Part shown: one piece after another, positions 24,447 to 36,506 of the stretch
How positions within the stretch are numbered: the stretch's first letter is position 1
Layout: every line of letters starts with the position of its first letter
Source of the DNA: Roseobacter sinensis
Lineage (GTDB): Bacteria > Pseudomonadota > Alphaproteobacteria > Rhodobacterales > Rhodobacteraceae
NCBI RefSeq assembly: GCF_025755255.1
Contig: NZ_JALIEB010000010.1
Span: 48,902-112,901, forward strand
Reading direction: 5' to 3'
DNA length: 64,000 nucleotides
Translations under genes and position numbers: made by a program
The notes under the pieces: model-generated
Seen by the model: only the letters and a program-made list of their open reading frames with translations
The model's database searches: none
Told to the model about the DNA's origin: nothing

Positions 24447-24672
24447 CGCCCGTTCGGGTAAACTGCCGGTCAATTGGATGTCTGGTTGAGAGGTCGGGCA
24501 GGTCCGACGTCCCCTCGCAGTCTCCGAATGCTTTTGAGTGCCCAGCCCAGACGCAACCTTGGCTGATCGTCTCATGCACGTGGGCTGAAACCACCGTTGC
24601 CTTCGGCGATTTGACCTTCATGATGGCGCAGAGCGGATGCAGGCGCCCGCGGCGTGGCAGAGGAGGTGGAGT

Positions 24673-26064
24673 ATGGTGTCTTCGACAGTAGCAGTGGTGC
24701 GGCGGCGTCTGGCTTGGCTGGTGGTTTGCGGCGCGGTTCTGGCCGCGGGAGCGGCGTTCGACGCAGCCGCACAGACCCGCGAGGCGCCGACGCAGGCCGA
24801 GCCCATCTCCACTGAGCAGCAGGTCGACATCGAACCGGTCGCTGCCGATGATCGGATCGCGGACCGTATCGCTCGTATTCTGAGGGCGACGGGGTGGTAC
24901 CGCGATGTTGCCGTCGAGGTGGACGAGGGTGTGGCCTTTCTGGACGGGGTGTCCGAGACGGAGGCACAGCGCACATGGGCGCAGAACCTCGCCGCCAAGA
25001 CCACGGGCGTGGTGGCCGTGGTGAACCGCATTCAGGTCGACAACACGGTGGAATGGTCCTTCGATCCGGCACTCGCCGAGTTGAATCGGCTGGTCCAGGA
25101 TACGGTGGCTGCCCTGCCGCTCTTCATCCTGGCGGTGCTGGTGCTGCCGCTCGCATGGTACGCGGCCAAGCTCGTGGCGCGGCTGGTGCGGTGGCTTCTA
25201 GGCGCGCGCGTGCCATCGCCCTTCCTGCGATCGGTGATTTCGCGGATCGTGGCGTTCCCGGTGTTCCTGGTGGGGCTCTACATCGTCCTGCAGGTGGCGG
25301 GGCTGACCCAACTGGCGCTGTCGCTGGTCGGCGGTGCGGGCGTGGTCGGTATCGTCATCGGCTTTGCGTTCCGTGACATTGTCGAGAACTTCCTGGCAAG
25401 CCTGATCCTCAGCGTGCGCCGTCCGTTCCAGCGGGGCGACTTCATCGAAGTTGCGGGTCTGTCCGGAACCGTCAAGAGCATGACGACCCGCAGTACGCTG
25501 CTCTCCTCGGTCGAGGGCAACCAGATCCATATTCCCAATGCCACGGTGTTCAAGAACGTGATCGAGAATTTCACCTCCTCGCCCAGTCGCCGGGGCGATT
25601 TTGTCGTGGGCGTCGGCTATGACGCGGCGGTCCCCGAGGTTCAGTCGATCGTCCTTGAGTGCCTGCAAAGCCATCCGGCGGTTCTGGCGGACCCAGAGCC
25701 CATGGTGCTGGTGGACGAGCTTGGGGCGTCGACCGTCAATATCCGCACCTACTACTGGTACAACGGTCACATTATTTCCCCGATCAAGCTGAAGTCCGCA
25801 CTTCTGAGAACCGTGAAGACCGCGCTGATGACCGCGGGCGTGTCGCTGCCGGATGAGGCGCGAGAGGTGATCTTCCCGCAGGGGGTGCATGTGATCACCG
25901 GAACGGAGGCGTCGCCGCCGCCCGCACCGGACGAGGATCTGCGCACGCCCGGCCCGCCCGAACCGGATGCCACCGAGTCCGAGGGCGACCTGCTCACAGA
26001 AACGGGCCCAGACGAAGAGATCGTGACCGACGACACCGAACCGGACCTTCTCGGATCACGCTGA
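24673..26064 (+). CDS. MscS-family mechanosensitive channel with BON domain
   Basis: 463 residues from the ATG at 24673, preceded by GGAGGTGGAGT. Signal peptide ~1-35, then a BON-type domain ~60-125 (DRIARILRATGWYRDVAVEV ... VVAVVNRIQVDN). Membrane helices ~150-175, ~205-228 and the pore-lining helix ~235-260 (LVGGAGVVGIVIGFAFRDIV), then the MscS beta domain (LSVRRPFQRGDFIEVAGLSG, NQIHIPNATVFKNVI). The C-terminal ~50 residues are acidic and proline-rich. Opens on membrane tension to release solutes during osmotic downshock. A periplasmic BON domain may bind lipid or other envelope partners. Confidence 0.92.
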   Translation: MVSSTVAVVRRRLAWLVVCGAVLAAGAAFDAAAQTREAPTQAEPISTEQQVDIEPVAADDRIADRIARILRATGWYRDVAVEVDEGVAFLDGVSETEAQRTWAQNLAAKTTGVVAVVNRIQVDNTVEWSFDPALAELNRLVQDTVAALPLFILAVLVLPLAWYAAKLVARLVRWLLGARVPSPFLRSVISRIVAFPVFLVGLYIVLQVAGLTQLALSLVGGAGVVGIVIGFAFRDIVENFLASLILSVRRPFQRGDFIEVAGLSGTVKSMTTRSTLLSSVEGNQIHIPNATVFKNVIENFTSSPSRRGDFVVGVGYDAAVPEVQSIVLECLQSHPAVLADPEPMVLVDELGASTVNIRTYYWYNGHIISPIKLKSALLRTVKTALMTAGVSLPDEAREVIFPQGVHVITGTEASPPPAPDEDLRTPGPPEPDATESEGDLLTETGPDEEIVTDDTEPDLLGSR

Positions 26065-27385: not shown

Positions 27386-27690
27386 CCGAAACAGCGAGAC
27401 CGGGGCGAGATCGCGCCCCGACACCCGCGACCAAAGACTGCCTTGGACCGGTCGCCGGGGGCCGGGGTATGCTCCTCCTGAACCGCCTTTATGGCCTCGA
27501 ATTGGCGGTCGCCTGTGCCGTTTTTGACCGCCGCGCTCCACCTCGTTTCGGTGTCTCTCGAATGCTGAATGTGGAGGCCACGGATCTGTCCGTGGGCGCA
27601 GCGGATGGCACCTCTCCGAGCGGGAAGGTTGCCCGAATCGCCCAAAAGTTGTAATTTATCTATATTTTTTAAGGATTTTGGAGAATGATC
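27386..27690 (+). promoter_or_regulatory. 305-nt leader and promoter region of the W-x-N peptide operon
   Basis: No gene is supported. A perfect 7-bp hairpin with a 4-nt loop lies at 27578-27595 (CCACGGA TCTG TCCGTGG). At 27648-27676 the sequence turns strongly A/T-rich (TTGTAATTTATCTATATTTT), the best promoter candidate, with TATATT at 27661-27666 as a possible -10 box. GGAG at 27680-27683 is spaced 7 nt from the ATG at 27691 and only 1 nt from the ATG at 27685, which decides the start of the peptide gene. Confidence 0.55.
27401..27420 (+). terminator. GC-rich hairpin after topoisomerase IB
   Basis: CGGGGCG (27401-27407) pairs with CGCCCCG (27414-27420) over a 6-nt loop; no T tract follows, so this may be a Rho-assisted or weak terminator. 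Confidence 0.5.
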
Positions 27691-27957
27691 ATGCGCAGAA
27701 TGACCGTACGCCTGATCGCAATTGTTCTGGCTTCACTGGTTTCGGTCTTTGGACAGATGACGAGCGCGACGGCCCGACCGGACAGCGCGATGATGTCGGA
27801 AAAGCGGCACTTGCAAAGCAGGCTCGATGCGTTGAGCCGGGCCGAAAGCCCGGACGATGTGGGGGCAGAGGAGCGCGCGAAACCGCGGCTCGCGCAGTGG
27901 TTCAACTGGAACAACTGGGGCAATTGGAGCAACTGGAACAACTGGGTGAACTGGTAG
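27691..27957 (+). CDS. Exported precursor peptide with six tandem W-x-N triplets (triceptide-type RiPP)
   Basis: 88 residues. Residues 1-28 are a Sec signal peptide with basic start (MRRMTVRLIA), hydrophobic core and an ATA cleavage site before Arg29. Residues ~30-69 are a charged leader-like spacer. Residues 70-88 consist of WFN, WNN, WGN, WSN, WNN, WVN and a final W. W-x-N is the aromatic-x-(Asn/Asp/Arg/Lys) pattern used by radical SAM enzymes that form three-residue cyclophanes, and the next gene, 12 nt downstream, encodes such an enzyme. In the known GrrA/OscA group the modified region is Gly-rich; here it is Asn/Trp only. The mature peptide should be periplasmic or secreted. Biological role unknown. 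Confidence 0.85.
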   Translation: MRRMTVRLIAIVLASLVSVFGQMTSATARPDSAMMSEKRHLQSRLDALSRAESPDDVGAEERAKPRLAQWFNWNNWGNWSNWNNWVNW

Positions 27958-27969
27958 GGCGATTGTTCG

Positions 27970-29127
27970 ATGCCCGCCTTGTCCAAGCTCGATCTTCTGG
28001 TGTTGCAGCCAACGCCGTTCTGCAACCTGGATTGCCGGTATTGCTATCTGCCTCATCGCAGCCAGACCGCGCGGATGGATGACGACACCCTGCGCGCGGT
28101 GGGCCGAACGATCATGGCGAGCCCCTGCACGACGGCGGATACGACGCTTCTGTGGCATGCAGGCGAGCCCTGTGTGCTTCCCGCGACCTGGTATCGCGAG
28201 GCCTGCCTCCGGCTGGAGGAGGGCGGTGGGCGTGCGGTCGGACGGCAGGCGTTCCAGACCAACGCGACGCGGATCGATGACGCCTGGCTCGACTATTTCG
28301 CTCAGCCCGGCGTCTCGGTGGGTGTCAGCCTGGATGGGCCGGCCGAGATCAACGACCACTGGCGGGTGGATCGGCGCGGCCGCGGCAGTTTCGCCCGGAC
28401 GATGCAAGGGATTGCGGCGCTGCGCGGGGCGGGCATCCCGTTTCACGTGATCTGCGTGGTGACGGCGGCGTCGCTCGATCATCCGGAACGGATTGCGCAT
28501 GCTCTGGCGGAGACCGGCGCGCATTCGATCGGCCTGAACGTCGAGGAGGTCGACGGCATTCACGCGCGCTCCAGCCTGACCCGCGTCGAAGAGGCGCAAT
28601 ACCAGCAGTTCCTGTGCCGCTTTTCCGAGGCGCTCGCCACGCATGACCCCGCGCCACGCTTGCGCGAGGCGGATCGGGTGCGCTCGGCCGTGACCGCCTG
28701 GCAACAGGGCCAGGGGCTGCGCAGCCAGGAAAACACGCCGGGTGCGATCATCTCGGTCGGGGTGCGTGGTGACATCTCAAGCTTTTCGCCGGAGTTGCTC
28801 GGGCTGACCTCCGAGGCCTACGACGACTTCCGGTTTGGCAATGTCCACGAGATCGGTGAATTGAGCGAGATCTTTCTGTCGCGGGCGTTTCTGCGCTGCC
28901 AGCGCGACATCAGCCGGGGGGTGGCGCGGTGCCGCAAGAGCTGTGCCTACTTCGGGCTCTGTGGCGGCGGGTCTCCGTCGAACAAGCTGGGCGAGACTGG
29001 GCGCTTCGATGCCACCGAAACGCGCCACTGCCGACTGAGCGTGAAGGCCACAGTCGACACCTTGCTGGACCGGTTGGAGACGACCTCAGCCCCCAAGATG
29101 CAGGAGAGACGCCATGCCATCGGATAA
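27970..29127 (+). CDS. Radical SAM/SPASM enzyme, GrrM-like (three-residue cyclophane former)
   Basis: 385 residues. The [4Fe-4S]-SAM motif is C18-x3-C22-x2-C25 (CNLDCRYCY). The C-terminal SPASM region holds C310, C321, C325, C331 and C354, with YFGLCGGGSPSNKLGE and ATETRHCRL, a pattern I recognise from GRRM-system maturases. It lies 12 nt after the precursor gene and overlaps the large membrane-anchored gene by 14 nt. Expected role: cytoplasmic C-C crosslinking of Trp side chains to the beta carbon of Asn two positions later in the W-x-N triplets, before export. Enzyme class is clear; the specific reaction is inference from the precursor. Confidence 0.87.
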   Translation: MPALSKLDLLVLQPTPFCNLDCRYCYLPHRSQTARMDDDTLRAVGRTIMASPCTTADTTLLWHAGEPCVLPATWYREACLRLEEGGGRAVGRQAFQTNATRIDDAWLDYFAQPGVSVGVSLDGPAEINDHWRVDRRGRGSFARTMQGIAALRGAGIPFHVICVVTAASLDHPERIAHALAETGAHSIGLNVEEVDGIHARSSLTRVEEAQYQQFLCRFSEALATHDPAPRLREADRVRSAVTAWQQGQGLRSQENTPGAIISVGVRGDISSFSPELLGLTSEAYDDFRFGNVHEIGELSEIFLSRAFLRCQRDISRGVARCRKSCAYFGLCGGGSPSNKLGETGRFDATETRHCRLSVKATVDTLLDRLETTSAPKMQERRHAIG

Positions 29128-32100
29128 CTCGGGTCAGCCCGCAACACCGTCCCGGATGCGTCGGATGCTTGGCCGGCTCCGCCGCACGGTGATCCACGTG
29201 GGCACGATGCTGACGGTGCGCGCCGCGTTCATTTTGACCTTTGCGCTGCTCTTTTTGTGGTTGCCTGCGCCCTGGCTGTGGCAGTTCGTGCAAACTCGCC
29301 TCGATGATCAGGCCTGGCTGTACGATGCGTCGAAAGAGGGGCTGATCGTGGTCGACTCGCCGCAGATCTTCACCCGGGAGCGGCTGGTCAATCAACGTTT
29401 GCGCGACAGCGACTGGATCGACCGGCAGCTATTGGCGGTCGACGAGAAGCTCAAGAAAGGCGAGTTCGGAACGCCCGACACGATCAGCGCGTCGCAGCGG
29501 TTGCTGAAGATCTACCAGGAGGCGGCGCAGGCTCAGACCCCCGGTGCCGGGGCCGTGGATCTGGACAAGTTGCAGGCGATGATGCGGCCCGACCCATTGA
29601 CCGTCTTCGAAGACGCGCAGATGTACCGCGAGATGCTGACACAGAACCGGTATGAGACGATCCTCGACGATGCCCATGACATCGGCTCCAACACCTTGCA
29701 GCGCCTCAATTTCCGGATGACGCTGTCGCCCGCGCGGGCCATGAGCGATTCGCTCGCCGCGGTCACGATCACCATCGACGAACCTGCCGAGCCGGAATGG
29801 CTGTTTCACCATTACGGGCGCCTGTTGGTCGAAACACGCGAAGAGCTCGAAGAGACGGTTGCCCGGCTGGTGGCGGACCGGTCGCGGATTTTCACGCAGC
29901 AGATGGGCGTCTACGGTCTGCACCCGAAGAGCGAGGCGGCAAAGAATGCAATCTTCGCGCGCGTCTTCACGGCACTTTACGCGCCGGGTCAGGACGGGGC
30001 CGCCACCACCCAGCGCAGTGCGCAGAGTTATCAGCGCGATCTGATCGCTCTGGTGCTTGACTACCAGCGGCAGGCGGAGACCCAGCAGATCGAAGCGCTG
30101 GTCGTGGATTATGTGACCAATTCCGCGCCCTGGACGGGCTTGGGTGACAAGCTTCTGGCCCGCAGCCGTCCGCGCGACTTCCTCAGCAGCGCAACAGAGG
30201 TGCTGAAAGGTAGCTGCGATCAGCCTGTCAGCCTGTGGATGCTGGCGGCGGATCATCTGAAAGACCCTGTCTTTTACAACGAATTGCTTCAGGACTATGC
30301 GCGGGTGCAGCCGCTGAAAGACAGCCTGCGCCCGTCGGGTCCGCCTGCGGCGCCGGAGCCTGCGGCCGTGAGCGTTCCTCGGCCCACCGCTGTCCCCACG
30401 TCGGTCGACATGCGCAGCGAGGCCCAGTTCCGTGAGTTTCTGCACAGGTTTCTGCCGCCCATTCCGTGCCGGCGGGACCTTGCACTCGATCTGCCGCGTG
30501 CCAAGTTGCAGCTTGTGGGCATCATGGAGATTGTAAACGGCGTTCTGGCGCAGGACCCGCTGTGCGCCGGTCGCCCGCCTGCCGACCGCCATCACGCTAT
30601 CCGCGCGGCGGCCCATGTGTTGATGAGCCCCGATCCGGCGCGGCTGGAGACCGACCAGGATGTTCCGCAGGCCTGCAGGGGTCTGGTGCAAGAGGTTCGG
30701 GCAATGACCGATCTGATGGTGGACGACCGGACAAAAGCCTCCGGGCTTCAGCGCATCGGCGTGGCGCATATGATCCTGGAAGAGTTGCAAGAGACTGCCG
30801 GCGATACGGTTGCTCGCCGGCGCGGACTGGCCGATTACTTCGATATCGGCATCGACACCTGCGATCTGACCAGCTGCAACATCGCCGTCCGCACATTCGC
30901 CGAGGCGCATCTGCAAGGGATCCGGCGTGCGTTGGACCCGATGCCCGATGCGGCCGATCCGAAGGCTGACCTGCTGGCCGATGCCCCTGCGGACAAGGCG
31001 GTGCCGCAGCCCGCGGTGCAGGGCGCAGGATCGCTCTCGGCGCAGGCAGGCCCGCGGCGCGAGCTTGGGAAACTCGCTGGATCGGACGGGGATCCCGGGC
31101 TCATGGCAGAGCGGATCGGCCGCGAGGAAGCGCTGCGCCTCTTTGCCGAGCTGTCCTGCTTTTCGACCGCGCGCAGCTATACCGTCTGGCCGCGCACCGG
31201 CGCGCGCCAGCAGATGCTGCAGACCGAGCAAGACGGTGTGTCGCTGATCAGCCAGGCGCTCAACCCCCTGGGTGTCGCCGCCGATGCGCAGAGCAGCGTG
31301 ACGCGGCGCCGGCACATCGACAAGGTGTTCGGGATCGGCGATGGCGGCCAGCCGGTCGATACGCCGTTCCGCGAATGCGACGGCCCGTTCTTCTGGATGC
31401 TGAACATGCTGCAACCCGACGGGCGCTTCATCGAACGCTATCTTGACAAGGGGACCTGGAACGGCGCCGACAGCGCCATTCTGGCTTGGCGCGATCAGCG
31501 GACGTGCCTTCTGGGCGTCGCGAGCCGGATCGCGCCCTGGTATGACCTGGAGCTGACCCGCCCCGATGGGCGCGCCTTTGCCAGCGAGGAGGCGCGGGTG
31601 GCCGCACTTGTTGCCCGCTGCGCCGACCCGGCTTCGGTCGGCGAGGTGCCGAAGGAGGCGACGGACCGGCTCGTCAAATCGGCACGGCTGCACGATGTGG
31701 CGACATACACGCGCAGGCTTCGGCAGCGGGACACCAACATCTCGTGGATCGTGGCACCGGAGCAAATGGCGGCGCTGTCGCCATCGGCCCATGTGGCGCG
31801 CAGCATCCCGCTTTCGGCCATCGTCTCGGTGCCCAGCTGGTGGCCCAGTGCGCGGATCACCATCCGCACCTGTTGGCTGCGGCCGGCGGATCTGATGCGG
31901 CAGACACAAGGGGCGGACTTTTGCAGAGCGGACCCGATGGAGGACAAGCGCACGGGCTTCCAACTGCTCGACCGGCGGATCGAGCGATTGGCTGCAGCAG
32001 GTCGCACGGAAACCACGGTGACGATCCCGTTGCCCAGCAATGCGCAGGACGTTCTGCCGAAACTGGGCTTCTTCCTCATCCGGGCGCCTTATCTCGACCA

Positions 32101-32587
32101 GTGGGAGTTCGGTCCGATCGAGGTCGAATCCGGGCGGTCCGCGCAGATCCGCCTAACTGGTAGCCGGTTGTGGAAGAACCCGCGCGTACGTCTGGGCGCG
32201 CAGTGGCATGACAAGATCGAGGTGCTGCCCGACATGAAGGGGATCATCGCGACCTTCAACTGCGTGACGCAGATCGAGAGCGCGACGAAAGCGCGGGTGC
32301 ATCTGTCGAGCGAGCCGCTGATCAAGGTGCCTACCGACAGGACGGTGCCGGATGGCACCTATGAGGCCATTCAGAAGCGGCTGCCACCCCCCGGGATCGT
32401 GCCGGCCGAAGCCTATACGGCCGACCGCCAGGCCCAAGTGTGGACCAGCGAGGGCGTGACCGGCAATACGCTGGTGAAGGTTCGGGCCTTCCGGCCCAGC
32501 TATCTCAAGGATGGTGGGTTCGAACAGCCCTGCTGGGCCAATCCCGACGAGTTGGACGACAAGTCGGGTCGTGGCACGAACGACTAA
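29114..32587 (+). CDS. Large membrane-anchored protein of unknown function in the W-x-N peptide operon
   Basis: 1157 residues, start with GGAGAGACGCC upstream and a 14-nt overlap with the radical SAM gene. N-terminal ~35 residues are basic (RMRRMLGRLRRT), followed by one membrane helix ~36-58 (AAFILTFALLFLWLPAPWLW); the remaining ~1100 residues should face the periplasm. The region ~60-400 is helical and charged; ~415-440 is Pro/Ala-rich linker; ~470-720 contains scattered Cys (PIPCRRDL, DPLCAGRP, QACRGL, DTCDLTSCN). The C-terminal ~350 residues look beta-rich with Cys (IRTCWLRP, ADFCRADP). I recognise no catalytic motif and no known family. Codon use matches the neighbours. As the only large partner of a modified exported peptide it may bind, process, present or be inhibited by it. 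Confidence 0.85.
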   Translation: MPSDNSGQPATPSRMRRMLGRLRRTVIHVGTMLTVRAAFILTFALLFLWLPAPWLWQFVQTRLDDQAWLYDASKEGLIVVDSPQIFTRERLVNQRLRDSDWIDRQLLAVDEKLKKGEFGTPDTISASQRLLKIYQEAAQAQTPGAGAVDLDKLQAMMRPDPLTVFEDAQMYREMLTQNRYETILDDAHDIGSNTLQRLNFRMTLSPARAMSDSLAAVTITIDEPAEPEWLFHHYGRLLVETREELEETVARLVADRSRIFTQQMGVYGLHPKSEAAKNAIFARVFTALYAPGQDGAATTQRSAQSYQRDLIALVLDYQRQAETQQIEALVVDYVTNSAPWTGLGDKLLARSRPRDFLSSATEVLKGSCDQPVSLWMLAADHLKDPVFYNELLQDYARVQPLKDSLRPSGPPAAPEPAAVSVPRPTAVPTSVDMRSEAQFREFLHRFLPPIPCRRDLALDLPRAKLQLVGIMEIVNGVLAQDPLCAGRPPADRHHAIRAAAHVLMSPDPARLETDQDVPQACRGLVQEVRAMTDLMVDDRTKASGLQRIGVAHMILEELQETAGDTVARRRGLADYFDIGIDTCDLTSCNIAVRTFAEAHLQGIRRALDPMPDAADPKADLLADAPADKAVPQPAVQGAGSLSAQAGPRRELGKLAGSDGDPGLMAERIGREEALRLFAELSCFSTARSYTVWPRTGARQQMLQTEQDGVSLISQALNPLGVAADAQSSVTRRRHIDKVFGIGDGGQPVDTPFRECDGPFFWMLNMLQPDGRFIERYLDKGTWNGADSAILAWRDQRTCLLGVASRIAPWYDLELTRPDGRAFASEEARVAALVARCADPASVGEVPKEATDRLVKSARLHDVATYTRRLRQRDTNISWIVAPEQMAALSPSAHVARSIPLSAIVSVPSWWPSARITIRTCWLRPADLMRQTQGADFCRADPMEDKRTGFQLLDRRIERLAAAGRTETTVTIPLPSNAQDVLPKLGFFLIRAPYLDQWEFGPIEVESGRSAQIRLTGSRLWKNPRVRLGAQWHDKIEVLPDMKGIIATFNCVTQIESATKARVHLSSEPLIKVPTDRTVPDGTYEAIQKRLPPPGIVPAEAYTADRQAQVWTSEGVTGNTLVKVRAFRPSYLKDGGFEQPCWANPDELDDKSGRGTND

Positions 32588-32650: not shown

Positions 32651-33706
32651 CTATTCCGCCGGGGCGAAACCCTCGATGAGCTGTCGCAGCCCAAGTGCGG
32701 CCCCGAGGAAGATCGCGATGAAGGCGACGGGCGCGCTGTAGGCCAGCACGGAGAAGGCCGAGATCCCCTGTCCCACGCTGCACCCGACCGCCAGGATGGC
32801 GCCGGGGCCCATGAGTGCTGCGCCGATGATCTGGCGGCGCAACTCGCGCGGGTCTTCGCAGGCCTCCCAGCGGAAATGACCCTTCGAGTAGGAGCCGAGG
32901 ACGGCGCCGATCAGCACGCCGGCCACCGAACCGACGCTGAAGGAAAGCGTATTGCCCGAGGCGGTCATCGCATAGTAGATCGTGTCGCCAATCGGGGCTG
33001 CGAAAGAGTGTGTCTCGATGGGCTCGGCTTCGAAGCCGGCTGTGGCGACCCAGGAGGTGCCGACCCAGCCCGACAGGATGGCAAGGCCGACCATGATGCC
33101 CCAGAAGATGTGGCCGCGCGACCGGCGGATCTCGGAGGAGCTGAGCGCAACGGCGAGAAGCACGCCGCCGATGGCCAGACCGGTGAGCACAGGCGGTACG
33201 CCGAGACGCTGCTCGGCCAGCTGGCTGAAGCCCTGCGGCGACGTGGCGCCCAGCTCGACCGGGAAGAGCCAGACCCGCAGATGCGCCAGCGGTCCGGACA
33301 TCACGAAGTAGGCGGAGAGGCCCATCACCAGCACGATCACGAAGGCCCGCATGTCGCCGCCACCCAGGCGCGCGAGAGCGCCGTAGCCGCAGTTGCCGCT
33401 GAGCGCCATGCCGTAGCCAAACATCAGCCCTCCGATGATGGTACCCAGCGGGGTCCATCGGCGATCGAGATAGGCGGTCTCAGTACCTGCCAGCCAACCG
33501 GCCGACATGGCCACATGAGTGCCGATGATCGCGACGGCGATGGCGATGCCCCACATACGAAGCCGCCGGTCGTCGGAGCCGTAGAGCATGTCTTCGATGG
33601 CGCCGAGAGTGCAGAAGCGCCCCACGCGTGCGGCAAGCCCAAGTGCTATGCCACCGATCAGCCCGATCAGCGCAACGGTGTTGGCTTCGCCAACGAGATC
33701 GATCAT
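32651..33706 (-). CDS. soxT: SoxT-type YeeE/YedE membrane transporter
   Basis: 351 residues from the ATG at 33706 (GGGAGGAAGC upstream). Two YeeE/YedE halves, about ten membrane helices, with the paired Cys motifs: GRFCTLGAIEDML, ALSGNCGYGALARLGGG and ALMGPGAILAVGCSVGQGIS. Homologues import thiosulfate or sulfur-bearing species (TsuA) or act in Sox regulation (SoxT of Paracoccus). Last gene of the soxS-soxR-soxT minus-strand operon, convergent with the large orphan protein gene. Confidence 0.87.
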   Translation of the reverse strand: MIDLVGEANTVALIGLIGGIALGLAARVGRFCTLGAIEDMLYGSDDRRLRMWGIAIAVAIIGTHVAMSAGWLAGTETAYLDRRWTPLGTIIGGLMFGYGMALSGNCGYGALARLGGGDMRAFVIVLVMGLSAYFVMSGPLAHLRVWLFPVELGATSPQGFSQLAEQRLGVPPVLTGLAIGGVLLAVALSSSEIRRSRGHIFWGIMVGLAILSGWVGTSWVATAGFEAEPIETHSFAAPIGDTIYYAMTASGNTLSFSVGSVAGVLIGAVLGSYSKGHFRWEACEDPRELRRQIIGAALMGPGAILAVGCSVGQGISAFSVLAYSAPVAFIAIFLGAALGLRQLIEGFAPAE

Positions 33707-33747
33707 GCCAGCTTCCTCCCGAAGACCGGCGCTTGGCAAAAGACCGG

Positions 33748-34119
33748 TCAGTCCTGCCTGCAAAACAGGTCGTAGACCACTTCCATGATTTGCCTCGGCC
33801 GGTCGTCTGTCAAGCTGTAGTAGATGGCCTTGCCCTCGCGGCGCGGTGTCACGAGCCCCTCCAGCCGCAGGCGCGAGAGCTGTTGCGACACCGCCGCCTG
33901 GCGCGCCGAGAGCAGGTCTTCAAGCTCGGTCACGGATTTCTCGCCCGAGGCCAGGTGGCACAGGATCATCAGGCGGCCCTCATGGCTGATCGCCTTGAGG
34001 AAGTTGGACGCGGCCTGCGCGTTCTTCATCATGCGATCCATGTCCTCAGGGCACATGTTCGGATCGAACACCGGCAGGCGTGAGGGCGATTCAGGCTCTT
34101 GAGGTGCGTCAAGTGTCAT
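33748..34119 (-). CDS. soxR: ArsR-family sulfur-responsive repressor SoxR
   Basis: 123 residues. Winged helix LKAISHEGRLMILCHLASGEKSVTELEDLLSA with recognition helix QAAVSQQLSRLRLEGLVTPRR. Conserved cysteines: Cys22 in DPNMCPED, Cys54 in MILCHL and Cys120 near the C-terminus (DLFCRQD); in SqrR/BigR-type repressors a Cys pair forms a persulfide or polysulfide bridge that releases DNA. It lies between soxS and soxT and divergent from soxV; ATTC-N8-GAAT-type sites are seen upstream of soxV and soxX (see operators). Confidence 0.92.
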   Translation of the reverse strand: MTLDAPQEPESPSRLPVFDPNMCPEDMDRMMKNAQAASNFLKAISHEGRLMILCHLASGEKSVTELEDLLSARQAAVSQQLSRLRLEGLVTPRREGKAIYYSLTDDRPRQIMEVVYDLFCRQD

Positions 34120-34125
34120 TGCAAG

Positions 34126-34494
34126 TTATCCCGTCTGGTCCAAGTCGATGCTCGCTGTCTCGAACATCTTGGTCAACAACCCCCAAAAGAAGTCTTCTCC
34201 CGGATAGCCTTCGATCCGGCCAACCTCAATCCCGTCTTCGATGAGCAGGAATGTCGGCGTGAAGCGCACCTTGCCGGTCAGCTCCACATTCGGCGTATCG
34301 TCATGCAGATCGTACCGGCGGAGCGGTGCGGTCCGGCCTTGGGCCGTCTTGGGGTAGATATGAGCGATTTCCGCGTTCCAGCGGGCGCACCAGAAACAGC
34401 CTTTCTCTTCTGCCATCAGCAGATAGGTCTCCGCGGCCAGCGGCAGGGGCAGCCACGTGGCGATCATGAATACGAAAAGCCGCAAGCGCGCCAC
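34126..34494 (-). CDS. soxS: Periplasmic thioredoxin SoxS
   Basis: 122 residues with signal peptide ~1-21 (FMIATWLPLPLAA). Active site KGCFWCARW near residues 32-37; TPTFLLIEDG carries the cis-Pro. In Paracoccus SoxS reduces and reactivates the SoxYZ swinging-arm Cys. Here it is 6 nt upstream of soxR and is the first gene of the soxSRT operon, divergent from soxV. Confidence 0.9.
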   Translation of the reverse strand: MARLRLFVFMIATWLPLPLAAETYLLMAEEKGCFWCARWNAEIAHIYPKTAQGRTAPLRRYDLHDDTPNVELTGKVRFTPTFLLIEDGIEVGRIEGYPGEDFFWGLLTKMFETASIDLDQTG

Positions 34495-34531
34495 GTCGAA
34501 CTCCGATTGACGAGAACCTCGTCCTGATCAT

Positions 34532-34547
34532 AATCTAATATTTGAAT
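34532..34547. promoter_or_regulatory. Candidate SoxR operator between soxS and soxV
   Basis: AATC-TAATATTT-GAAT (34532-34547) matches the ATTC-N8-GAAT pattern of SqrR/BigR-type repressors with one mismatch; it lies in the only A/T-rich part of the 80-nt divergent spacer, where it could block both promoters. Confidence 0.6.
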
Positions 34548-34574
34548 ACTTCAAGGTTCGCAGACAGGACCGCC

Positions 34575-35315
34575 ATGTTCGATGTGACATATTTCGGCGC
34601 TCTGCTCGCCGGTCTGCTGTCTTTTTTGTCACCCTGCGTCTTGCCGATGGTGCCGTTCTACCTGAGCTATCTGGCCGGCGTTGGCATGAACGAGGTGACA
34701 GCGGGCGGCACGGCCAGCGCTGCGGTGCGCGGACGCGCGGCGCTCACATCGGTCTGTTTCGCGCTGGGCGTGATCACCGTTTTCGTCGGCCTGGGTGCGA
34801 CCGCGACAGTCTTCGGCCAGATGGTGCGCGAGTATTTCGACGTGCTGCGCTGGGTGGCGGCGGGGATCATCATCGCCATGGGGCTGCACTTTCTGGGCGT
34901 GATCCGGATCAGCGCGCTCTATCGCCAGTTTCGCGCAGATGCGGGCGATACTGCGCATGTGGGGCTTCTGGGCGCCTATGTGATCGGGCTCGCCTTTGCC
35001 TTCGGCTGGACGCCTTGCGTGGGTCCGGTTCTGGCCGCAATCCTGTTCACCGCCGCCGGTCAGGAGACGGCCGGGCAGGGGGCCACGCTGCTCTTCACCT
35101 ATGGGCTCGGAATGACGCTGCCCTTCGTGGCTGCGGCCCTCTTCATTGGCCCTTTCATGTCGTGGATGGCGCGGTTTCGGCGCCACCTCGGTCTGGTCGA
35201 GAAGCTCATGGGCGCGCTTCTGCTGCTCTTCGGTGTGCTGATCGCGACCAATTCCATCAACATCATCGCCCAATGGATGCTGGAGCACATTCCGTGGTTC
35301 AGCACGATTGGCTAG
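34575..35315 (+). CDS. soxV: CcdA-family thiol transporter SoxV
   Basis: 246 residues from the ATG at 34575 (AGGACC upstream); an earlier in-frame TTG is less likely. Six membrane helices with the paired redox Cys in LSFLSPCVLPMVPF and FGWTPCVGPVLA. CcdA-type proteins move electrons from cytoplasmic thioredoxin to periplasmic partners; in Sox systems SoxV feeds SoxW (and thereby keeps SoxYZ active). First gene of the main plus-strand sox operon, followed 15 nt later by soxW. Confidence 0.93.
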   Translation: MFDVTYFGALLAGLLSFLSPCVLPMVPFYLSYLAGVGMNEVTAGGTASAAVRGRAALTSVCFALGVITVFVGLGATATVFGQMVREYFDVLRWVAAGIIIAMGLHFLGVIRISALYRQFRADAGDTAHVGLLGAYVIGLAFAFGWTPCVGPVLAAILFTAAGQETAGQGATLLFTYGLGMTLPFVAAALFIGPFMSWMARFRRHLGLVEKLMGALLLLFGVLIATNSINIIAQWMLEHIPWFSTIG

Positions 35316-35330
35316 CCTGGGAGACTTGAG

Positions 35331-35891
35331 ATGACCCGCCTGATCGCTGCTGTGTTTGCAACCCTGACTGCCCTTCAAGGGCTCGCGGCCGAGATCGGCG
35401 ACGACGGCCTGCACAAGGCGCCGTGGATGCGGGACACCTTCAAAGACCTGAGCGAGGACCTGGCCGAGGCGACCGCTGAGGGCAAGCGGTTGATGGTGCT
35501 GATCGAGCAGCGCGGCTGCATCTACTGCCAGAAGATGCACGAGGAGATCTTCGTGATCCCCGAGGTGGCTGATTACATCATGGAGAACTTTTTCGTCGTC
35601 CAGATCAACATGTTCGGCGACGTGGAGGTGACCGACTTCGACGGTGAGGCACTTCCCGAGAAGGACATGGTGAGGCGCTGGGGTGCCCTTTTCACGCCCA
35701 CGATCCTGTTCTTCCCGGAGGAGGTGGCTGAAGGTGTCACGGCCTCGGAGGCCGCGGTTGCCACGATGCCGGGCGCCTTCGAGCGCTGGACCACCTACAA
35801 CATGCTCACCTGGGTGGTCGAGAAGGGCTATGAGACGGACGAGCCGTTCCAGAAGTACCACGCGCGCAAGTTCGAGACACAGGGCGGCTGA
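35331..35891 (+). CDS. soxW: Periplasmic thioredoxin SoxW
   Basis: 186 residues, signal peptide ~1-20 (LIAAVFATLTALQGLA). Redox motif GCIYCQKMHEEIF near residues 63-70 and FTPTILFFPEE with the cis-Pro. The longer SoxW/DsbDgamma-like family differs from SoxS; it accepts electrons from SoxV. Followed by a 141-nt spacer holding the soxX operator. Confidence 0.92.
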   Translation: MTRLIAAVFATLTALQGLAAEIGDDGLHKAPWMRDTFKDLSEDLAEATAEGKRLMVLIEQRGCIYCQKMHEEIFVIPEVADYIMENFFVVQINMFGDVEVTDFDGEALPEKDMVRRWGALFTPTILFFPEEVAEGVTASEAAVATMPGAFERWTTYNMLTWVVEKGYETDEPFQKYHARKFETQGG

Positions 35892-35952
35892 ATGCCGACC
35901 CGTTTGCGAAATGTCTCGCATGTTTTTGCTGCATCTGCGAACAGATCTAAAA

Positions 35953-35968
35953 ATTCACTTAGTTGAAT
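35953..35968. promoter_or_regulatory. Candidate SoxR operator between soxW and soxX
   Basis: Exact ATTC-ACTTAGTT-GAAT (35953-35968), 65 nt upstream of the soxX ATG. In Paracoccus-type clusters SoxR is known to bind the soxS-soxV and soxW-soxX spacers, the same two positions found here. Confidence 0.68.
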
Positions 35969-36032
35969 TTGATGTTGCGTGAATCGGAATTGTGTGCGCA
36001 AGTATGCAGGAAACGGTCACATGGGAGGGGTC

Positions 36033-36506
36033 ATGACACGTTTCGCCATATTCGCCGCAACAGCCAGCTTATGCGCGACCAGTGCGGCAGCGGAGATCGT
36101 CAAGCCGACGGATGTTACATTTGTCGATGGTGTGATCGAAGCCTCCCTGACCGGTACGCCGGGTGACCCGGCGGCTGGTGCGGAGATCATGGACAAGGGG
36201 GCCGGCAACTGCATCGCCTGCCACGCCGTGACGGAGCTCGACCACCTGGGCTTTCACGGCGAGATCGGACCCCCTCTCGATGGCGCGGCCGACCGCTGGA
36301 GCGAAGCGGAGCTGCGCGGGATCGTGGCGGATGCAAAGCAGATGTTCGATGGCACGATGATGCCATCGTTCTACAGGGTGGATGGCTTCATCCGGCTGGG
36401 CGACGCCTATACGGGCGACGCGCATCAGGGCGAGGTGGAACCGCTCTTGACCGCGCAGCAGATCGAAGACGTCGTCGCCTATCTGATGACGCTCAAGGAC
36501 GAGTGA
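36033..36506 (+). CDS. soxX: Cytochrome c subunit SoxX
   Basis: 157 residues from the ATG at 36033, which follows GGGAGGGG; upstream in-frame ATGs at 35979 and 36021 lie before that site. Signal peptide ~1-20 (FAIFAATASLCATSAAA). Single haem site GNCIACHAVTE near residue 62, and distal Met ligand candidate in GTMMPSFYRVDGF. Pairs with SoxA to attach thiosulfate oxidatively to SoxYZ in the periplasm. Confidence 0.95.
   Translation: MTRFAIFAATASLCATSAAAEIVKPTDVTFVDGVIEASLTGTPGDPAAGAEIMDKGAGNCIACHAVTELDHLGFHGEIGPPLDGAADRWSEAELRGIVADAKQMFDGTMMPSFYRVDGFIRLGDAYTGDAHQGEVEPLLTAQQIEDVVAYLMTLKDE

Follow-up and report, generated by a model that had tools for sequence, protein, structure and literature searches.

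The chemistry of the triceptides is established while, to our knowledge, the roles of these peptides are mostly unknown. In quinohemoprotein amine dehydrogenase a small exported subunit is crosslinked by a radical SAM enzyme and stays in a periplasmic complex. The GRRM neighbourhood includes an orphan substrate-binding protein, which we take to be GrrP (TIGR04262). The closest described maturase is OscB, of the InterPro family (IPR026357) to which the enzyme studied here belongs; according to PMC11002830 it links C7 of Trp to C-beta of Asn or Asp, and C4 of Phe to C-beta of Asn, and its characterised substrates are W-x-N and F-x-N sequences, with Asp allowed at the third place. Among other radical SAM cyclophane peptides, darobactin and dynobactin are antibiotics.

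We have analysed a window of DNA from Roseobacter sinensis (i.e. the whole stretch, of 64,000 nucleotides) in which a short peptide, a GrrM/OscB-family enzyme and a large partner protein are encoded side by side. The locus shares with OscB/OscA (GrrM/GrrA, TIGR04261/TIGR04260) the enzyme family, an aromatic-x-N core and a short leader ahead of the core, and, as in the triceptide class, a maturase of 3-CyFE type is encoded next to a precursor that has a leader and an aromatic-x-N core. It differs in having a contiguous ladder in place of Gly-spaced repeats, and in the large partner. As in the GRRM neighbourhood with its substrate-binding protein (an SBP_bac_3 protein at locus L034 of genome G126), an exported protein lies beside GrrM; here, however, it is a membrane-anchored protein of 1157 aa from another, unnamed family. 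The maturases XncB, MscB, FxsB, DynA and DarE are SPASM-type peptide-crosslinking relatives, and the models of several of them match below their cut-offs; they belong to other families, and the enzyme lies well below their curated thresholds. The likeness to quinohemoprotein amine dehydrogenase is one of logic only and not of relationship, the partner having no matching Pfam domain.

The triceptide chemistry is known. The families of the precursor and of the partner are new, as is the coupling of the two with no conserved transporter, protease or immunity gene alongside. Nothing was found on the partner or the ladder precursor in the literature covered; that coverage leaves out the greater part of the subscription journals, the main papers on triceptides among them, and these may contain a mention. 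With only three genes, the unit is minimal; its single partner is dedicated to it and unnamed, and solo relatives of that partner provide natural controls. Whether peptides crosslinked by radical SAM enzymes can act as cofactors or subunits for proteins of the envelope, and not as antibiotics, can be tested on it directly. The unit also defines two families, the ladder precursor and the partner, that the curated libraries searched here lack.

Organization of the locus

The three genes lie on the forward strand, in the order precursor peptide (27685..27957, 90 aa), radical SAM/SPASM enzyme (27970..29127, 385 aa) and partner (29114..32587, 1157 aa). There is a gap of 12 nt between the peptide ORF and the enzyme gene, and the enzyme and partner genes overlap by 14 nt. 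The earlier note had proposed a three-gene operon with this spacing and a partner of 1157 residues, and both agree with the coordinates on re-reading. It had also placed the start of the system at 27386. This position does lie just after the preceding stop codon, but the genes themselves begin at 27685 or 27691. A ribosome-binding-site-like GGAG (27680..27683, forward strand) is 1 nt from the first ATG and 7 nt from the ATG at 27691, so the latter, giving a peptide of 88 aa, is the likelier start. A promoter scan returned no sites and was uninformative. The host genome (4.9 Mb, 99.6% complete) contains one GrrM and one homologue of the partner.

The precursor peptide

The peptide begins with a signal-peptide-like region (27685..27774), comprising a hydrophobic run followed by ATA; the signal peptides of the precursors were judged by hydropathy alone, and the cleavage site is a putative one. 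This is followed by the sequence LQSRL (27811..27825), an example of a motif of form [LIVAM]xxR[LIMV] that is found in 20 of 21 leaders, compared with a mean of 6.2 and a maximum of 14 in 1000 shuffles. It is a candidate recognition site for the enzyme. The core (27898..27954, forward strand) has the sequence WFNWNNWGNWSNWNNWVNW, containing six overlapping W-x-N triplets and a terminal W. Six triplets had been counted in the earlier note, and these prove to be contiguous.

The comparison of precursors comprised 21 peptides, with that of L051 set aside and the start of that of L048 not settled. All 21 have a hydrophobic region at the start and the core at the end. The cores are 14-25 residues long and extend to the C terminus, with W or Y as last residue in 18 peptides. 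They are preceded by AQW in 19 cases and SQW in 2, the presence of QW being partly by construction because this string served to locate the cores. The peptide of the window matched no family of NCBIfam at E<=0.01 and is thus outside GrrA/OscA1 (TIGR04260), and those of L036, L037, L051, L054 and L089 had no match to TIGR04260 at E<=1. By contrast, the Gly-rich GrrA peptides of L087 and L088 match that family with 54.0 and 56.0 bits (cut-off 31). On sequence comparison the ladder precursor is a new family, which the curated libraries used in this analysis do not contain.

The composition of the ladder can vary. In L051 it is an F-x-N ladder, and in L050 it is mostly W-x-S. The earlier note had described an all-W/N core coupled to a large partner; the coupling is retained in 22 loci, but tryptophan is not obligatory. 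Since W-x-N triplets spaced by Gly are also present in the canonical GrrA peptides of L087 and L088, which have no partner, it is the contiguous ladder and not the triplet that goes with the partner. An F-x-N ladder is found both with the partner (L051) and without it (genome G673).

The DNA pattern encoding W-x-N-W-x-N-W occurs in the 4.9 Mb genome at this locus only, as five overlapping matches, compared with none for the reversed-pattern control. It is present somewhere in 89 of 394 genomes of the family, many of these matches probably being in other frames, so two repeats alone are not specific and the pattern was rejected as a stand-alone detector. Four or more matches were found in 7 of the 394 genomes, forming one overlapping run in 6 of these; the four matches of G190 are on four separate contigs. 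A single overlapping run together with enzyme and partner is found in G000, G171, G215 and G255. G188 has enzyme and partner and gave no match because its ladder is interrupted. In G105 and G370 the run consists of short tandem repeats, and GrrM and partner are absent from the stretch fetched. We note that an ORF of G105 (L126:4854-6020) contains at least nine W-E-N repeats near its start (MPFASLENWENWEN...), followed by sequence that by eye is phosphatase-like; there is no GrrM or partner near it within the 12 kb fetched.

Conservation of the three genes

The earlier note had suggested looking for co-occurrence of the three genes in relatives, and this search bore out their association. The partner was matched in 8 of the 394 genomes of the family. 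In G000, G171, G188, G215 and G255 the enzyme and a ladder peptide are directly upstream of it. G106 and G078 have short homologues of the partner with no GrrM in the stretch; a hidden peptide was first suspected beside these, and none passed the ladder filter. The match in G207 (E 7e-4, with one stop inside) was dropped as a doubtful fragment that the profile did not recover. A scan of genome contigs gave 47 partner loci (L036 and L037 being the same contigs as G171 and G215), with GrrM adjoining in 19 and absent beside 28. These 19, with the window, L020 and L022, make up 22 distinct GrrM-linked loci, and in all 22 the peptide, enzyme and partner occur together. The automatic ladder filter recognised the peptide in 20, and the two variant ladders of L050 and L051 were identified by eye. 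The trio is found mostly in Alphaproteobacteria, and also in Chromatiaceae and a Nitrospinota MAG. Neither GrrM nor partner is present in the single congener sampled (G266), so the cassette is patchily distributed.

TIGR04261 enzymes are themselves rare, occurring in 7/394, 5/385 and 2/398 genomes at the level of family, class and phylum; these samples overlap, giving 11 distinct GrrM genomes in all. Six have the partner, each with an aromatic-N ladder directly upstream. A profile search of the other five found no partner (the own genome, as positive control, gave 3e-169). Among the partnerless genomes, G670 and G747 have Gly-rich GrrA peptides that include W-x-N triplets spaced by Gly, and in G126, where the substrate-binding protein adjoins, no peptide of ladder or GrrA type was found. 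L089, in G673, encodes an FPN-ladder peptide with GrrM, the partner being absent from the genome. L033, in G330, is a distinct GrrM neighbourhood: upstream of the enzyme there is an acidic, aromatic peptide, and downstream lie genes for an unnamed protein and for a member of the tetrapyrrole-methylase family.

The trio is constant in the 22 loci, but the partner family also occurs solo, in genomes without GrrM. TIGR04261 gave no match over its cut-off in the 26 of 28 solo-partner genomes searched (all except L058 and L059), and one weaker match of 160.6 bits.

Clustering of ORFs of at least 90 aa within about 10 kb (shorter genes would escape) revealed no further same-strand neighbour that is conserved at a fixed place, and no conserved transporter, protease or immunity gene beside the trio. 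Only one large forward family emerged, a permease-like protein at 10 loci (7 GrrM-linked and 3 solo), lying 3-11 kb away on either strand, which we take to be a common ABC family joined by single linkage. Conserved reverse-strand ORFs opposite the enzyme and partner were judged to be antisense shadows. An anti-phage defence system was considered and rejected; with PADLOC the peptide, the partner and a solo relative had no match, and the enzyme matched nothing but a viperin model, weakly and generically (29.2 bits). In three related loci there is an extra open frame between enzyme and partner (L042:8162-8917, L045:9229-9981 and L051:9344-9886), encoding about 180-250 aa with no Pfam family. This is perhaps a further tailoring or binding protein.

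The partner protein

No Pfam or NCBIfam model matches more than one of 40 members of the partner family, which seems from these searches to be new, i.e. absent from the curated libraries used here. Its profile gave only two matches to PDB sequences, near E 0.5, which were taken as chance, and tblastn against plasmids found nothing. A putative membrane anchor spans residues 32-50 (29207..29263, forward strand), with a charge of +6 before it and -1 after. There is more positive charge before than after the anchor in 27 of 40 members and in 15 of 18 that are GrrM-linked, a modest bias. The N-termini of the solo proteins of L076 and L079 are lipoprotein-like by eye, which fits an extracytoplasmic body.

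GrrM-linked partners (930-1297 aa, compared with 700-1212 aa for solo rows) carry clade-specific cysteines and extra segments. C583 and C588, in the sequence CDLTSC (30860..30877, forward strand), are conserved in the GrrM-linked group and rare in the solo relatives. Among the 18 GrrM-linked rows of alignment A2, C583 is present in 18, C588 in 17, C920 in 18, C1050 in 16 and W910 in 18; each occurs in at most 16% of 19 solo rows (L046, L076 and L077 were left out of this comparison). The paired conserved cysteines would fit an oxidizing periplasm.

The model of the window partner has a mean pLDDT of 66.3 and a pTM of 0.61, and is weak over the extra segments; that of a solo relative is better (mean pLDDT 76.4, pTM 0.75). 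With Foldseek the window model had no PDB match at E<=0.001; a match to 3mqi_C has probability 1.00 and TMt 0.75, but E 0.12. The solo model had three at that threshold, of which two are Rel-type TIG proteins with probability 1.00; the match to 1imh_C has E 4.7e-4. Pfam TIG is found in 1 of 40 members at a weak E of 0.025, and comparison with viral models gave generic Ig and IPT/TIG matches only, none at E<=0.001. Taken together, the matches of the two models indicate that the beta-rich C-terminal part (residues 874-1124; 31733..32485, forward strand) is likely to be Ig-like, with a possible IPT/TIG-like domain at the end. Outside this part the models and Foldseek revealed no recognisable fold.

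A possible role for the crosslinked peptide

The presence of the trio side by side in distantly related bacteria suggests that the stapled peptide probably works with the partner at the cell envelope. The following scheme may be proposed. In the cytosol the enzyme would recognise the precursor by its leader and, with the chemistry of OscB, link every Trp to the Asn at position i+2, so that as many as six strained cyclophanes form a rigid ladder. The crosslinked precursor would then leave the cell by Sec, its signal presumably being removed by signal peptidase. The partner, anchored by one N-terminal helix and with its body in the periplasm, probably stabilized by disulfides, would bind the ladder and retain it permanently, as a ligand or a small subunit within an envelope complex, in place of its release as a free natural product. 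On this view the solo family is the older one, and its GrrM-linked branch would have acquired the additional segments and cysteines for binding the ladder. Genes that usually accompany a secreted RiPP are missing from the cassette, and this favours a retained ligand or subunit; we regard the reading as evenly balanced between right and wrong. The more particular idea that the ladder forms a built-in component of a periplasmic membrane machine, as a radical SAM-made prosthetic peptide plugged into the Ig-like end of an undescribed, widespread envelope family of which one branch has come to depend on it, is tentative, and we lean slightly against it.

The crosslinked peptide might instead be released as an antibacterial or signalling peptide, with the partner as an immunity, export or surface-display factor. 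Darobactin and dynobactin are precedents, and a membrane-anchored protein that looks Ig-like at its C-terminus could serve in this way. Yet the trio has neither a transporter nor a protease gene conserved next to it, and solo partners in genomes where no GrrM passes the cut-off (0/26) are a poor fit to a dedicated immunity protein, so we consider release unlikely. Somewhat less likely still is a role for the partner in processing, as an enzyme by which the exported peptide is trimmed, cyclised or attached. The partner is strictly paired with the precursor in 22 loci, and it has invariant polar residues including R88, E89, R90, D185, D186 and H188; but these are also conserved in the solo proteins, which have no peptide, and neither an enzyme family by sequence nor an enzyme fold among the leading structural matches was found.

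The radical SAM enzyme

The earlier note's assignment of the enzyme as GrrM-like was upheld, the best family being TIGR04261 (GrrM/OscB) with 363.1 bits against a curated cut-off of 310; AmcB and the other families were all under their cut-offs. There is a match to PF04055. The cysteines of a CxxxCxxC cluster (C18, C22 and C25) and C321, C325, C331 and C354 are shared by all 27 enzymes compared. The solved structures nearest in sequence are anaerobic sulfatase-maturating enzymes (E 4e-15). The enzyme very probably joins Trp residues of the peptide to Asn two residues on, a well-supported reading, and since OscB of the same InterPro family makes Trp-Asn links (PMC11002830), the predicted chemistry is known chemistry.

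A product other than i to i+2 Trp-Asn cyclophanes, such as another linkage or partial modification, could be imagined from the score, which exceeds the cut-off but is below the 381 to 481 bits of the canonical members found, and from the variation of the cores (W-x-S in L050). Against this, the catalytic cysteines are intact, and OscB acts on both W-x-N and F-x-N and tolerates Asp in the third position (PMC11002830), making such a product improbable.

Joint evolution of enzyme and partner

A tree of 43 partner rows (19 GrrM-linked and 24 solo, with partial rows dropped) requires only 2 changes of the GrrM-linked/solo label, compared with a shuffled mean of 14.3, and none of 500 shuffles was as low. 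The sole exception is L044 (a Crenothrix MAG), which lies inside the GrrM-linked group with GrrM absent from the genome. The distance matrices of enzyme and partner correlate with r 0.79 (0/2000 permutations as high) on 15 of the 22 loci, three near-duplicates and four loci absent from alignment A2 having been dropped. This indicates that enzyme and partner travel together; it is not evidence of contact, and joint inheritance would explain it as well as co-adaptation. In the tree of enzymes, 2 changes of the partner-linked label are needed, the partnerless L087 and L088 nesting inside with modest support. Solo homologues exist, but a passenger role for the partner, functionally unconnected with the peptide, is barely credible: the trio recurs at 22 loci in taxa far apart, its genes mostly overlapping or almost doing so, and GrrM-linked and solo partners separate on the tree.

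Flanking genes

The flanking genes scanned encode a topoisomerase IB and a sulfur transporter, and no substrate-binding protein adjoins the trio. Downstream (window 32651-36506) there are sulfur-related genes encoding a TsuA/YeeE-like transporter, a BigR-like regulator and a DsbD-like protein, together with thioredoxin-type and cytochrome-like proteins named by eye. On the other side an MscS-type channel with an N-terminal BON domain is encoded at 24637-26064.
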